Assembly (NCBI GenBank): GCA_012031225.1
Contig: JAAUTZ010000014.1
Span: forward strand, 1 to 55,377
DNA: 55,377 nt
DNA from: Chloroflexaceae bacterium
GTDB taxonomy: Bacteria; Chloroflexota; Chloroflexia; Chloroflexales; Chloroflexaceae
Direction of reading: 5' to 3'
Shown: positions 1 through 8,355 of the stretch, piece by piece
How positions within the stretch are numbered: the stretch's first letter is position 1
How the letters are laid out: each line of letters opens with the position of its first letter
Notes under the pieces: model-generated
What the model was told of the DNA's origin: nothing
Seen by the model: only the letters and a program-made list of their open reading frames with translations
The model's database searches: none
Made by a program: the position numbers and the translations under genes

Positions 1-692
1 CCCACACCCGTGCCGCCCGCTTCAGAGCCGCCACAGGATGTCCCCCCGCGCCAGAGCCGCCACAGGATGAGCCGCCACAGGATGCCCTAGGCGCACCCGC
101 CAATGGCTTGCCGCCCCTGCCGGAGGCTGGGCCCACGCTCGTATTTGATGGCAATGGCACGCTGGAGACGGGCTTGTTTACGCTGCCTGCGCCGGTCAGC
201 CGCCTGCAAATCCAGCACGATGGGCGGGAGCGGTTTATCGTGCGGCGGCTCACCCCGACTGACCCGATTGGGATTGGCTTGGTGGATCACGATGGGGTGT
301 ATAGCGGCAGTGTGCTGCAAGTGCGCCGCGACGATCCCGAACAGCAGGAGTATTTCTACACCGTAGAAGCCGATGGCAACTGGCGGCTCGTGCTGGAAGC
401 CGTGCCCGAAACCAGCCCGCCGGGTGATATTGTGGTGGGCAGTGGCGATTTTGTGAGCGATTTCTTTATCCCCGATCTCGAACGTGGGCGCGATTTCCTG
501 ATCCGCCACAACAAGGATGAGAGTGCCTTTCAGGTGTACATCCATTGCGCCAATGGCAAGGATGAGACGCTGGTGTTGCAAGCCGAAGGTGCCGTAGATA
601 CCGTCACCCCTATCGAACTTGGTGAGCCGCGTTGCCTGTGGGAAGTGTTTGCTGCGCCGGATGGTGAGTGGACATTGGAACGCCTGCCCTGA
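1..692 (+). CDS. C-terminal part of an extracellular beta-rich protein (5' end outside window)
   Basis: The reading frame is open from the window edge to the TGA at 690-692, so the start lies upstream. The visible part begins with a Pro-rich EPPQD repeat linker (25-83). About 190 residues of beta-rich sequence follow, apparently two similar units: one starts near LVFDGNGTLETG and the second near DIVVGSGDFVSDFF. This layout resembles extracellular modules that follow low-complexity linkers, but I recognise no named family. The first repeat copy (25-39) is in frame 1, while copies 54-83 and the rest are in frame 3. One extra C in the C6 run at 42-47 would join them. The protein could be a surface or secreted protein, and its function is unknown. 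Confidence 0.6.
   Translation, partial: HTRAARFRAATGCPPAPEPPQDEPPQDALGAPANGLPPLPEAGPTLVFDGNGTLETGLFTLPAPVSRLQIQHDGRERFIVRRLTPTDPIGIGLVDHDGVYSGSVLQVRRDDPEQQEYFYTVEADGNWRLVLEAVPETSPPGDIVVGSGDFVSDFFIPDLERGRDFLIRHNKDESAFQVYIHCANGKDETLVLQAEGAVDTVTPIELGEPRCLWEVFAAPDGEWTLERLP
25..83 (+). repeat. 15-bp repeats encoding EPPQD, with a frame slip between copies 1 and 2
   Basis: Three identical copies of GAGCCGCCACAGGAT lie at 25-39, 54-68 and 69-83. Copies 2 and 3 are adjacent and in the frame of the downstream protein. Copy 1 is 29 bases before copy 2, so it is out of frame by one base. The C6 run at 42-47 lies between them. Confidence 0.8.
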
Positions 693-3809: not shown

Positions 3810-5333
3810 CTAGCCCATCAGCTCCCAATATTCGAGATACTGCACTGGCTCGTCGGCGGCATCCAGCACTGGATCACGCTTGACAAGATACCAGCCCTGC
3901 TCACCCTGTGCATCCACGCACTTGACGGCGTACATCTGGCGGCCCTGCGGCGCATTGGGGCTATGATCGGGGTGCGAGGTGAGGTGCAAGCCGCGCTGCT
4001 CCAACTCCTGCCAAATGGCATCGTAGGCACGCCCGACGACCTCACGCGGGTGCAAGCCAAGAATGGTGCGGCTAAAGCTGACATTAACTTCCAGCACCAC
4101 CTCATCTGCATCCAACAAAAGTACCCCATCGCTGAGAGCATCCAGCATTGTGCGTAATGTCATGGTCTCGGCCTTGAGCTGGCGGAGGGGTTCATCGGCG
4201 GCAAGGTGTGGGCTAGCAGGCTCGGCAGGGGCAGGGATCGCTAGCGGAGCTGGGGGGGTGAGTGCGAACTGGGCACATGCCGCCGCCACCAGATTGGCAA
4301 ATACCGTCAGCAAAGCCCACGTTCCAGCCGAGAAAGCAAGGCTCTCTGGCGCATCACCAAGCAGTATCAATACGCCGACGTTGCGCCCCGCATATTGCAA
4401 TGGCACGGCAAGGCAGGGCAGATCCATCGGCTCGGCGAGATGGGTCTGCTGGCTCTGGCTGGTCTGCCAGACGGTCGCAGCAAGTGCGCTGATCTCCTGC
4501 TGGAACAGCTCGTGGGTGTAGAGCCGCCCCGTAGGAGCCTGCGCCAGTTCGAGCTTGCCTGCGCCCTGTTCCACAAACAGCAGGGTGCGCTGAATAGGGA
4601 AGAGCTGGGTGCTGCGCTCGTGGATCATCTTGGCCAGATCAGGGAGCGTGTGCAGGGTGGCATTGTATTGGCTGGTGAGCAGCAGGGCCTGTAGTTGCTC
4701 ACGCCGTTCGTGGTAGCTCTGCTGGAGTTGCAGGTGGGCCAGCGATACGGCAAGCTGGGCTGCGATACTCTGGAGCAGGAGTGCGTCTTCAATCGGGAAG
4801 GCCCGTGTCTCGTAGGCGTGCATAATGAGTACGCCGAGTGCGCTGCCGTTGTGGGCCAGCGGCAAAACCAGCGCACTGCCTTGCATTGGGAGCAGGGGCT
4901 GTTGTTGCCAGCGCAGGTCGCGGCTCACATCATTGATGACGGCACTCTCGCCGTGCTTGCAGATGGACGCAATCGCTGGGTGGGTATACAGCTCGTGGCT
5001 GATGACGGCATCCAGCCCGGCTTCTGCCTCATCCACGTAGCTATAGCCGCTATGCAACGCCGTGTGTTGATCGCGCACAATGAACCAGCAGTTCATGGGG
5101 TAGGCTTTGGCAATCAGCTGGATGCTGCGCTGGGCGAGCTGCGCTTGATCATGCACCCGGCTCACTACATTGCCAAGCCAGATCAGCAGCGCGCTGCGTT
5201 GCTTCTGGCGGGCGAGGCTGTTGCGGAGCCGGTCAAGTTCAGTGGTCTCATCGGTATCATCATGTATAGTGATGGGGCTACTCGCCAGTTTCACATTGTT
5301 CCCATTGCGATGGGACGGTACTACTTTGTGCAT
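3810..5333 (-). CDS. GAF-GAF-PAS sensor protein without output domain
   Basis: This is a soluble signalling protein of 507 residues. A short coiled segment (about 33-50) is followed by a GAF domain (about 50-205), a helical linker, a second GAF domain (about 220-365), an Ala/Pro-rich linker and a C-terminal PAS domain (about 395-500, LDALSDGVLLLDADEVVLEVN). No kinase, cyclase, EAL or HTH domain follows, so it probably passes its signal through partners. The start has AAGGA about 9 bases upstream. A G7 run on the + strand at 4252-4258 encodes Pro-Pro in the linker; slippage there would cut off the PAS domain. The ligand is unknown. Confidence 0.75.
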   Translation of the reverse strand: MHKVVPSHRNGNNVKLASSPITIHDDTDETTELDRLRNSLARQKQRSALLIWLGNVVSRVHDQAQLAQRSIQLIAKAYPMNCWFIVRDQHTALHSGYSYVDEAEAGLDAVISHELYTHPAIASICKHGESAVINDVSRDLRWQQQPLLPMQGSALVLPLAHNGSALGVLIMHAYETRAFPIEDALLLQSIAAQLAVSLAHLQLQQSYHERREQLQALLLTSQYNATLHTLPDLAKMIHERSTQLFPIQRTLLFVEQGAGKLELAQAPTGRLYTHELFQQEISALAATVWQTSQSQQTHLAEPMDLPCLAVPLQYAGRNVGVLILLGDAPESLAFSAGTWALLTVFANLVAAACAQFALTPPAPLAIPAPAEPASPHLAADEPLRQLKAETMTLRTMLDALSDGVLLLDADEVVLEVNVSFSRTILGLHPREVVGRAYDAIWQELEQRGLHLTSHPDHSPNAPQGRQMYAVKCVDAQGEQGWYLVKRDPVLDAADEPVQYLEYWELMG

Positions 5334-5682
5334 TGCGCTCTTCCTTCTCCGTGAGGATCACATGGATCATAGCCCACAGCCGATTGATTGGTTGATTGGT
5401 GAGGATAGTTTTTATTACGTACAGATTGTAACATAAAAAATTGGCATTAGGTCAAGATCTCTTCAGGTAATAGTCAATTTTCTCTCCAGAAATCTTGACT
5501 GTTGTACACTGCGGTGGCCCACTGAATAGAGCGTATTCAACGTGACCTGTGAAATTTTATACCCACGAATGCGATTTTACTATTTGTATATATCTTATTC
5601 GATACACCTGCCGAACAGCCGGTGATGACGTTAGCCGGTAAAGTTATCAAACCTTTTCTTATGGGAAGAAATTCTTTCTGGC
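5334..5682. other. AT-rich intergenic region between divergent signalling genes
   Basis: About 350 bases without a convincing gene and markedly richer in A/T than its surroundings. The GAF/PAS gene starts at its left end, transcribed leftwards. A possible weak minus-strand promoter is TTACAA (5426-5431, reverse strand) and TATCCT (5402-5407), spacer 18. The inverted repeat TGAATA-GAGCG-TATTCA lies at 5523-5539. The region passes into the structured element at 5683-5802. Confidence 0.5.
5523..5539. promoter_or_regulatory. Operator-like inverted repeat
   Basis: TGAATA and TATTCA are perfect 6-base arms around a 5-base centre, 17 bases overall, in the AT-rich divergent region. The size and spacing suit a dimeric HTH protein. 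No binding protein can be named. Confidence 0.3.
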
Positions 5683-5802
5683 AAGTAGCCCTTTTCCTGT
5701 TTGCAAAATGGTAGGAGGCGTGTACAATGATCATGGAAGCCTAAGGCAGTGCCTAGATGCACCCGCAACAAGGGTTGTTGACGGAGTGGGGCTACTTTTT
5801 TT
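5683..5802 (+). ncRNA. Candidate structured RNA closed by a 9-bp helix and ending in T7
   Basis: AAGTAGCCC (5683-5691) is the exact reverse complement of GGGCTACTT (5789-5797), and the second arm runs into seven Ts (5796-5802). Between them several shorter helices can be drawn by eye, for example CTA(A)GGC with GCCTAG and CAAC with GTTG. The layout, a closed multi-helix domain with the 3' helix leading into a U-tract, is that of a small RNA or a leader attenuator. It ends 44 bases before the roadblock gene at 5847. It matches no SRP, 6S, cobalamin, TPP, SAM or c-di-GMP consensus that I know. Confidence 0.35.
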
Positions 5803-5846
5803 GAGGCATATTGCTTGCACGCAGAGCGCGTGGAAAGGGTATGGTC

Positions 5847-6218
5847 ATGTCAACTCGACAAGAACTTATTTCGTCGGTACTGGAAACCTTTACCAACAAT
5901 ACCGGCAACGATGTCGCAGGCGTTGCGGCGGTTGGTATGGATGGGATTGTGTTGGTCTCGAAGATGTCATCGGATACCAATGCTGACAAAGTTGGAGCGA
6001 TGGCGGCAACCATGATGGGTGTGACCCGCCGTGTCACCGGTCAATTGCAGATTGGAACCCCCGAAGAAACGATTATTAAATCTGATGGTGGGCTGTTTAT
6101 GGTGCTGCCTGCGGGTGAGCAAAGCCTGCTTGCAATCAACTTGCGGCAGGGTGCGAATCTAGGCTTGGTGCGGATTGAAGCGCGTGAGGCAGCCCGTGAA
6201 GTAGGGCGGTTGATCTAG
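5847..6218 (+). CDS. Roadblock/LC7 domain protein (MglB-like)
   Basis: This is a 123-residue single-domain roadblock/LC7 protein; the whole length fits the fold, with GVAAVGMDGIVLVSKM near 25-40 and LLAINLRQGANLGLVRIEAR near 92-111. Family members bind Ras-like GTPases and act as activating or recruiting partners, as MglB does for MglA and CvnB in actinobacterial conservons. The start at 5847 is chosen because GGAAAGGG (5832-5839) is 7 bases upstream; an in-frame ATG at 5841 is too close to it. The GTPase at 7089-7682 is the obvious partner. Confidence 0.85.
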   Translation: MSTRQELISSVLETFTNNTGNDVAGVAAVGMDGIVLVSKMSSDTNADKVGAMAATMMGVTRRVTGQLQIGTPEETIIKSDGGLFMVLPAGEQSLLAINLRQGANLGLVRIEAREAAREVGRLI

Positions 6219-6363
6219 GCTGCGCGTAGCCGATCATGCGGTAGGCGCGCCAAAACACAGTGGATATGCGGTGAGCAATGGTGCTCAGCCGACAGTCAGG
6301 AGCTGCTCACTGCACACCGGATGGCGATGTTGATACACCTGTGAATAGGCTGAGGTACGAACT

Positions 6364-7068
6364 ATGGCACTCGAAGGTTCCCTTGAGGATATGTCCCTAA
6401 GTGATCTGTTTCAGGTCTTTCGGATGGGGCCGAAAACGGGCGTATTACTGCTCTACAATCGCCACGAGCGCGGCGTGATCTACGTCAATCAAGGCTTGCT
6501 GGTAGATGCGTTTGTCGTCTCAGGGCCTGAGCGCAAGGTGGTTGCCTCGAAGGATGAAGCCGTGCTGTATATGCTGGATTGGACGACAGCGGGCTTCATT
6601 TTCCGCCACGACCCATCGGTGGTGGGGCGGGCGGTGCAGATCAAACACGATGCCGAGTGGCTGGTGCTGGAGAATATGCGCCGCCACACCAGCCCCCAAA
6701 CAGCTGTGCCGTATCGCAAAGTCACGCTGGATACACGGCTCCAGCTCTCGCCCATTCCGAGCAACACCGAAAGCCAAGTGAGCTTGGGTGTGGATCAGTG
6801 GCGTATCCTCAGCCACGCGGCCAATCATCAGACGGTGCGCGAGATCTGCGCTGAAACGACTATGCCTGAAGATAAAGCGATACGGATTGTCGCTGAGTTG
6901 TTAGCCATTGGCTTGATTGATGTCAGTTCGGCGATTGCGCCTCCCACTAAAGCAACGGCAACGTCCAATAGCCGCCCCGACCCGAGTCATCCTGATGCCC
7001 GCCAGAGTGCGCCGCCAGTAGGGCGTTCCCTGCTCTCCGCAATCCTGCGCCGCGTCAGCGAACTGTAA
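6364..7068 (+). CDS. DUF4388 (PatA N-terminal-like) domain protein
   Basis: This is a soluble protein of 234 residues. The N-terminal ~110 residues match DUF4388: LEGSLEDMSLSDLFQVFRMG at the start, then KTGVLLLYN and GVIYVNQGLLVDAF. The middle (about 145-195) looks like a small helical/winged domain, with VDQWRILSHAANHQTVREIC. The C-terminus is low-complexity. DUF4388 proteins are common beside two-component and GTPase systems; their biochemical role is not established. It lies 145 bases after the roadblock gene and 20 bases before the GTPase gene. Confidence 0.75.
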   Translation: MALEGSLEDMSLSDLFQVFRMGPKTGVLLLYNRHERGVIYVNQGLLVDAFVVSGPERKVVASKDEAVLYMLDWTTAGFIFRHDPSVVGRAVQIKHDAEWLVLENMRRHTSPQTAVPYRKVTLDTRLQLSPIPSNTESQVSLGVDQWRILSHAANHQTVREICAETTMPEDKAIRIVAELLAIGLIDVSSAIAPPTKATATSNSRPDPSHPDARQSAPPVGRSLLSAILRRVSEL

Positions 7069-7088: not shown

Positions 7089-7682
7089 GTGAAACACATG
7101 CTTAAGATTGTGGTGACGGGGAGCTTTGCCGCAGGCAAAACCCAATTCATCCGCTCAATCAGCGACATTGACGTAGTAGACACGGATTTCAAGACCACAA
7201 CTAATGAAGAACGTGGCCTCAAAAGCGAAACAACTGTTGCGCTCGATTTCGGCACGATTGTGATTACCCCTAGCCTCAAGCTCTACTTGTTTGGCACACC
7301 CGGTCAGGTGCGCTTCGATTATATGTGGGAAGAGTTGGCGACCGGCTGCATTGGCTATGTGGTCTTGGTAGATAGCTGCCGTCCGGCATATTTTGCCGAA
7401 ACCCAACACTTGATGCACCGCTTTACCGAGATCACCCCCGCTCCATTCGTGGTGGCGGCAAACAAGCAGGATGATCCGGCGGCCCTGCCCCCGATGTACG
7501 TGCGCCGCCGTTTGGGGATCCCCGCCGAGATTCCCGTCCTGCCGTGTGTCGCATCCGAGCGGAGTAGCGTCAAGTTGGTGCTGATTAGCCTGCTCAAGCA
7601 TATAACATCCTATGGCGCGACGAGCGATGCTGAGGATAACGTTGTTGATGATGCCCCCAGTTCCCACGCTTCATCTGCCTAG
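7089..7682 (+). CDS. Small Ras-like GTPase (MglA/CvnD-like)
   Basis: This is a 197-residue GTP-binding protein. The P-loop GSFAAGKT is at residues 11-18, the G3 region reads FGTPGQ (69-73; the canonical DxxG Asp is replaced), and G4 is NKQD (125-128). A Ser/Asp-rich tail follows residue 175. The FGTPGQ variant is typical of the small GTPases paired with roadblock proteins in actinobacterial conservons. The GTG at 7089 is chosen because GAGGAG (7074-7079) is 9 bases upstream; ATG 7098 is too far. Likely regulated by the roadblock protein at 5847, by analogy with MglA/MglB. Confidence 0.85.
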   Translation: MKHMLKIVVTGSFAAGKTQFIRSISDIDVVDTDFKTTTNEERGLKSETTVALDFGTIVITPSLKLYLFGTPGQVRFDYMWEELATGCIGYVVLVDSCRPAYFAETQHLMHRFTEITPAPFVVAANKQDDPAALPPMYVRRRLGIPAEIPVLPCVASERSSVKLVLISLLKHITSYGATSDAEDNVVDDAPSSHASSA

Positions 7683-7813: not shown

Positions 7814-7843
7814 TTGATCTTGACCGTGATTACGTTCTATAAT
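7814..7843 (+). promoter_or_regulatory. Promoter for the coiled-coil membrane protein
   Basis: TTGATC (7814-7819), an 18-base spacer and a perfect TATAAT (7838-7843). The start would be near 7850, with a leader of about 20 bases to ATG 7870. Confidence 0.6.
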
Positions 7844-7869: not shown

Positions 7870-8355
7870 ATGTTAGGCTTGTTTGTGGCACTGGGCATTG
7901 CGATCCTCACGCTATTGGCGATTCTGTTGTGGTTTCTGCCCTACTTGTTGCAGCAGCAAGCCCAACAGCAAGCCCGTGAAGCAACCCATCTGCGGGCCTT
8001 GATTGCCGAGATCATGCATGAACAGGAAGCGTCTACGGTGCGCCACATGCAGCTCGGTGCATCGGTGGCGTACCTGCAAGATCAGCTTGATCAATTGAAT
8101 ACACGCATCCCAGAGCCGCAGCGCGTCACGGCACGCATGCCCGTCGGCTTACTGGAGACAGCCGCCCTAGAGCGCATTGAACACCGCTTAAGCAGCTTGC
8201 AGCACCAAGTCGCGCAGCAGCAGCATGTCTACCACAGCCATGCCCGCAGCGATACCGAAGCGTGGCTCTACCTGCTTGATCTGTTGGTGGCGATGCAGAC
8301 CCAGATCAAGACGCTGTCCGAACAGCTTCCGCCGCATACGGCAAATCAACGCTGA
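7870..8355 (+). CDS. Membrane-anchored coiled-coil protein, unknown function
   Basis: 161 residues. A single hydrophobic helix at about 3-28 is followed at once by a Gln/Ala-rich helical region (QQQAQQQAREATHLRALIAE), then further heptad-like stretches at about 55-78 and 95-118. No catalytic motif is visible. A good AAGGAG lies 6-8 bases before the ATG, and the gene has its own promoter (7814-7843). The layout is that of a scaffold or sensor-adaptor protein anchored in the membrane by its N-terminus. Any link to the GTPase module upstream is by position only. Confidence 0.65.
   Translation: MLGLFVALGIAILTLLAILLWFLPYLLQQQAQQQAREATHLRALIAEIMHEQEASTVRHMQLGASVAYLQDQLDQLNTRIPEPQRVTARMPVGLLETAALERIEHRLSSLQHQVAQQQHVYHSHARSDTEAWLYLLDLLVAMQTQIKTLSEQLPPHTANQR

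Follow-up and report, generated by a model that had tools for sequence, protein, structure and literature searches.

Upstream of a roadblock/GTPase gene module in a Chloroflexaceae contig, a perfect inverted repeat runs into a T tract. Does it mark a structured RNA that controls the module, or something else? In the window, which is the whole 55,377-nt stretch of DNA that was analyzed, this element lies within a 513-bp gap with a divergent GAF/PAS gene on one side and, on the other, roadblock/LC7, DUF4388, and small GTPase genes in an operon-like series (Table 1). A preliminary description had proposed an attenuator or riboswitch formed by a 120-nt RNA closed by a 9-bp helix. We give slightly better than even chances to a different reading, that the stretch would comprise the promoter and 5′ leader of the roadblock/DUF4388/GTPase operon, with a leaky or regulated intrinsic terminator. 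Of the original proposal, attenuation is retained as a possibility for a smaller hairpin, predicted in the leader from about 5735 and bordering the T tract in both species compared; the 120-nt RNA is not supported.

Table 1. Features of the element and of the flanking genes, by position in the window
Feature	Position	Strand	Basis or remark
Divergent GAF/PAS gene	3810-5333	-	Far side of the gap
Conserved patch TCTTTCYGGCAMGTAG	5673-5688	+	14/16 bases identical in G001; upstream of the promoter; holds part of the left arm
Left arm, AAGTAGCCC	5683-5691	+	Sequence; 6/9 bases identical in G001; upstream of the promoter
Candidate sigma-70-type promoter	5701-5728	+	Pattern match: -35 TTGCAA (5701-5706), 16-nt spacer, -10 TACAAT (5723-5728); same site in G001
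Putative 5′ leader of the roadblock/DUF4388/GTPase operon	5735-5846	+	Start at about 5735 predicted from the -10 box
Terminator-like leader hairpin	5738-5793	+	Predicted fold, both species; upper stem CAACAA/UUGUUG (5766-5771/5775-5780)
Inverted repeat GTGCCTAGATGCAC (GTGC-N6-GCAC)	5749-5762	+	Identical in G001
Right arm, GGGCTACTT	5789-5797	+	Sequence; 5789-5793 pairs with 5738-5742 in the leader-only fold
T7 tract	5796-5802	+	Sequence; T6 in G001
Small stem CACGC-agagc-GCGTG	5818-5832	+	Sequence; directly 5′ of the ribosome-binding site; kept in G001, where one pair is G-U
Ribosome-binding site of the roadblock gene, GGAAAGGG	5832-5839	+	Sequence
Roadblock/LC7 protein gene	5847-6218	+	ATG 5847; Pfam Robl_LC7, E = 1.9e-12
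DUF4388 (PATAN-type) protein gene	6364-7068	+	Pfam DUF4388, E = 1.7e-14
Small Ras/Arf-like GTPase gene	7089-7682	+	Pfam ATP_bind_1, Arf, and Ras matches

The sequence landmarks reported in the preliminary description are present as claimed: the perfect 9-bp repeat, the T7 at the end of the helix, and the 44 bases from there to the first start codon of the roadblock/GTPase genes. Its statement that this is the window's only hairpin with a real T tract also holds, with one of six runs of at least 6 T (both strands) ending a perfect stem of more than 6 bp. However, the right arm overlaps T7 by two T's, so that only T5 is left beyond the helix. Inverted repeats of 9 bp spanning up to 140 nt occur at background level in the window (42, versus a shuffle mean of 32.7 and range of 22 to 47), and a perfect arm of at least 9 at this T7 arose in 8 of 2,000 shuffles, a count uncorrected for the window's six T runs. 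The fold of 5683 to 5802 had a slight stability advantage over shuffles (z = -1.8), which the equivalent stretch of the sister species G001 lacked (z = +0.22). The arms in G001 (ACGTAGTGC and GTGCT-CCT) carry one mismatch and one gap, leaving five contiguous inner pairs, two of them wobbles, one of which is a double change from C-G to G-U. The minimum-energy fold of G001 does without the closing helix (-32.9 kcal/mol versus -30.2 kcal/mol with the inner helix forced, a cost of 2.7), and the covariation count for the helix was no better than in shuffles (258 of 500; G001 was the only homologue, which left the comparison without statistical power). Support for the closing helix is confined to the window sequence, and the helix is probably a coincidental inverted repeat rather than a functional RNA element.

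A candidate promoter, unnoticed in the preliminary description, lies between the two arms, and this position counts against the closing helix. The left arm sits 10 to 18 bases upstream of the -35 box and would be missing from the transcript, since the predicted start near 5735 is downstream of it. The site has the form expected of a sigma-70-type promoter, hexamers 16 to 18 nt apart upstream of a gene and kept in a relative: both hexamers and their spacing are identical in G001, as are 26 of the 28 bases overall. In a sense-strand scan from 5334 to 6420, it was the only promoter-like site, with none farther upstream. In the 250 bp preceding called genes there were 10 matches to TTGnnn-16..18-TAYAAT (32 per 100 kb), against 4 in 632 kb of coding sequence with both strands counted (0.6 per 100 kb), so that the pattern is about 50-fold denser upstream of genes; these statistics, like those for terminators below, are drawn from 361 kb of this genome with a crude gene caller. 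Considering this density and the position of the conserved hexamers at the start of a conserved block, the site is very probably the operon promoter, with a start near 5735. The conserved patch just upstream, which has one exact match per genome in both genomes, is a possible activator site. As a corrective, the locus illustrates that an inverted repeat across a promoter can mimic a structured RNA in a single-strand reading.

Comparison within the genus involved one sister species, two sequences in all. Among the 61 genomes searched at the DNA level, the region was recovered only in G001, at 82% identity. Identity was poor over 5501 to 5640 (39 to 48%) and just before the -35 box (4/9 bases, 5692 to 5700), and strong conservation started at the -35 box, with 86 to 87% identity from the leader to the start codon. 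Since four-fold sites of the downstream genes were 68 to 78% identical, the promoter and leader look constrained.

In the mechanism that we favor, RNA polymerase would bind at the promoter and initiate near 5735, and the leader would fold within 60 or so nucleotides into a hairpin ending at the U6-U7 tract; a share of transcripts would then stop near 5802, and the remainder would read through into the operon. Sequence comparison of the two species shows the match to a promoter, the conservation, the hairpin, and the T tract; the start site, termination, read-through, and any regulation are what we infer. The predicted leader RNA of the window reaches -22.1 kcal/mol by transcript position 60 and ends 2 nt short of the T tract, while that of G001 reaches -21.9 kcal/mol with a stem that runs into the tract. 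The upper stem is common to both species, and the lower stem is built of different bases. A hairpin and T tract between a promoter and a first gene, as in intrinsic-terminator attenuators, are thus found in two species. An equally stable hairpin at the T tract was obtained in only 4 to 6% of shuffles, and runs of at least 6 T are rare in this genome (30 in 361 kb, both strands counted). Relative to coding DNA, the first 100 nt downstream of called genes were enriched 3- to 4-fold in hairpin-plus-T sites (two looser settings, small numbers), which suggests that this lineage makes use of such terminators.

A terminator step in the leader is suggested because a hairpin of -21 to -22 kcal/mol adjoins the T tract in each of the two species despite the lower-stem differences, and because the only other strong match of a leader covariance model is itself a hairpin with T7, located after a clpB-like gene. 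The leader fold z scores, -1.2 (window) and -1.1 (G001), are unexceptional and count against a terminator, as does the border of the T tract, which is among the less conserved parts and has a 1-nt deletion beside it. On this evidence we consider the terminator step reasonably likely.

Regulation of this terminator by a signal is a matter of speculation. The repeat GTGCCTAGATGCAC, of which neither this genome nor G001 has a second exact copy, may form a competing hairpin or bind a protein; extended to 15 bases, as AGTGCCTAGATGCAC, it was matched exactly at this locus only in the 41 family genomes searched. Part of the terminator can give way to the GTGC/GCAC hairpin, which makes the overall fold 3.5 to 5.3 kcal/mol less stable; two sequences are too few for covariation to be informative. 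A genus-specific attenuator (5735 to 5802) that senses a signal, switches between the GTGC/GCAC and terminator hairpins, and so sets the roadblock/GTPase level is imaginable but improbable, as is regulation by a signal in general. Neither a ligand nor a protein nor an antiterminator emerged for the leader, which counts against the favored mechanism. Near the start codon, stems of other sequence were seen at positions equivalent to 5818 to 5832 in G016 (ACGCC/GGCGT) and G011 (CGCC/GGCG).

Roadblock orthologues, which begin at an equivalent MASRQ, occur across the family, with upstream regions unlike this element by eye. Runs of at least 5 T were absent from the last 140 nt of all 21 upstream regions taken from outside the genus (the L089 region has T5 at -150), so termination would be dispensable for the operon in general. 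A promoter-like site was located upstream of the start codon in 16 of the 21, which argues for the promoter-leader reading. Separately, the upstream regions of orthologues L082, L084, L086, L087, and L093 have in common a GTTRTCYACA-like motif about 17 nt before CTATACT; this points to a promoter or operator shared by roadblock operons in other genera.

The statement that the element fits no class was borne out by Rfam, with no match at the gathering score over the window and none up to an E value of 10 over 5560 to 5860. The covariance check proposed for homologues could be followed only as far as the sister species: Rfam contributed nothing, the leader model found this genome (G000) and G001, and there were no homologues outside the genus. 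Across 82 genomes of the order, these two were the only strong matches apart from the clpB-like terminator, the others being weak chance hits. No tRNA or tmRNA was found in the window, and the conserved leader core had no exact match in viral contigs. 6S RNA (RF00013) was rejected as an identity, with no Rfam match here and neither of the order's motifs GAGCCAACAC and GGCACCCACCTGC in the element. Rfam detected 6S RNA in 11 of 21 genomes searched, all 11 among the 19 Chloroflexales genomes other than G000 and G001 and 9 of them above the cut-off, and neither Rfam nor the motif pattern found it in the whole genomes of G000 and G001; the 6S RNA of this genus may be diverged or absent from the assemblies.

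Among the alternatives, a plain promoter and 5′ leader, in which the hairpin and T tract have no termination role and the sequence is conserved on account of the promoter, an operator (for example GTGCCTAGATGCAC), and translation signals, is rather unlikely but the likeliest of them. It fits the leader fold z score of only -1.2, the related orthologues that function without a T tract, and the full conservation of the GTGC-N6-GCAC repeat as a single exact copy per genome; what it leaves unexplained is the rare run of at least 6 T directly after a hairpin in both species. The leader could instead be a separate trans-acting small RNA of about 67 nt (5735 to 5802) with its own promoter and terminator, the operon being expressed by read-through. 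A promoter and a terminator-like hairpin with a T tract do bound such a unit in both species; however, it is confined to one genus, no separate operon promoter occurs in the following 44 nt, and its position is like that of the leaders of orthologous operons. We think a small RNA improbable.

A structured RNA of 120 nt, with the 9-bp helix as its closing stem, a promoter farther upstream, and a role as riboswitch or attenuator, is less probable again and in our view very unlikely. The perfect helix beside T7, the window fold (z = -1.8), and the five inner pairs still possible in G001 with their one double change speak for it. Against these stand the conserved promoter between the arms with no promoter-like site upstream on the sense strand of the window, the weak conservation of the left arm and the bases after it (6/9 and 4/9), and, in G001, the positive fold z score and a best fold from which the helix is absent, with a covariation count matched by shuffles. 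To a leader-peptide attenuator or hidden gene, encoded by the 15-codon frame from ATG 5757 (MHPQQGLLTEWGYFF) or the 92-aa frame from 5708, we attach hardly any credence. The start of the short frame is identical in G001 (MHPQQ.LL..W), but its differences are mostly amino-acid-changing and its stop is elsewhere; the longer frame is broken in G001 by a stop after 13 codons.

Among known systems, an operon leader with a terminator would most resemble the intrinsic-terminator attenuators of bacterial mRNA leaders in having a promoter, a short leader, and a hairpin with a U tract before the first gene. It differs from them in that no antiterminator has comparative support, no ligand or binding protein is known, and the arrangement spans two sister species only. 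The hairpin-T7 rho-independent-type terminator after the clpB-like gene (L111, G046), from another family of the order, is alike in hairpin shape and T7 tail (leader-model E = 9.8e-6); it sits after a gene, unlike the element here, which lies in a leader, and the likeness is probably one of form, not descent. The 6S RNA of Chloroflexales is likewise a structured RNA with a closing stem but is set apart by its conserved motifs. Prokaryotic roadblock/small GTPase modules of the MglA/MglB type (PMC4316618) also have a roadblock protein and a small GTPase, encoded here downstream; this likeness concerns the proteins, not the leader, and is one of gene content only, implying neither MglA nor a Rup group. 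A description of RNA-level control of a roadblock/GTPase module by such a leader was not found in a non-exhaustive literature search. A functional terminator in this leader would mean that a Chloroflexaceae lineage controls the expression of a roadblock/GTPase module at the RNA level.

Other features were observed in the surroundings. Between 5423 and 5500, a conserved patch, ATAGTCAATTTTC.CTCCAGAAATCTTGACT, is accompanied by a minus-strand TACAAT and probably marks a separate promoter for the divergent GAF/PAS gene. Downstream, a strong promoter-like site (TTGATC-18-TATAAT, 7814 to 7843) precedes a 161-aa gene at 7870 that had no Pfam match. The relatives G013 (contig C323) and G024 (contig C672) each carry two copies of the small GTPase on one contig, separated by about 2 kb.
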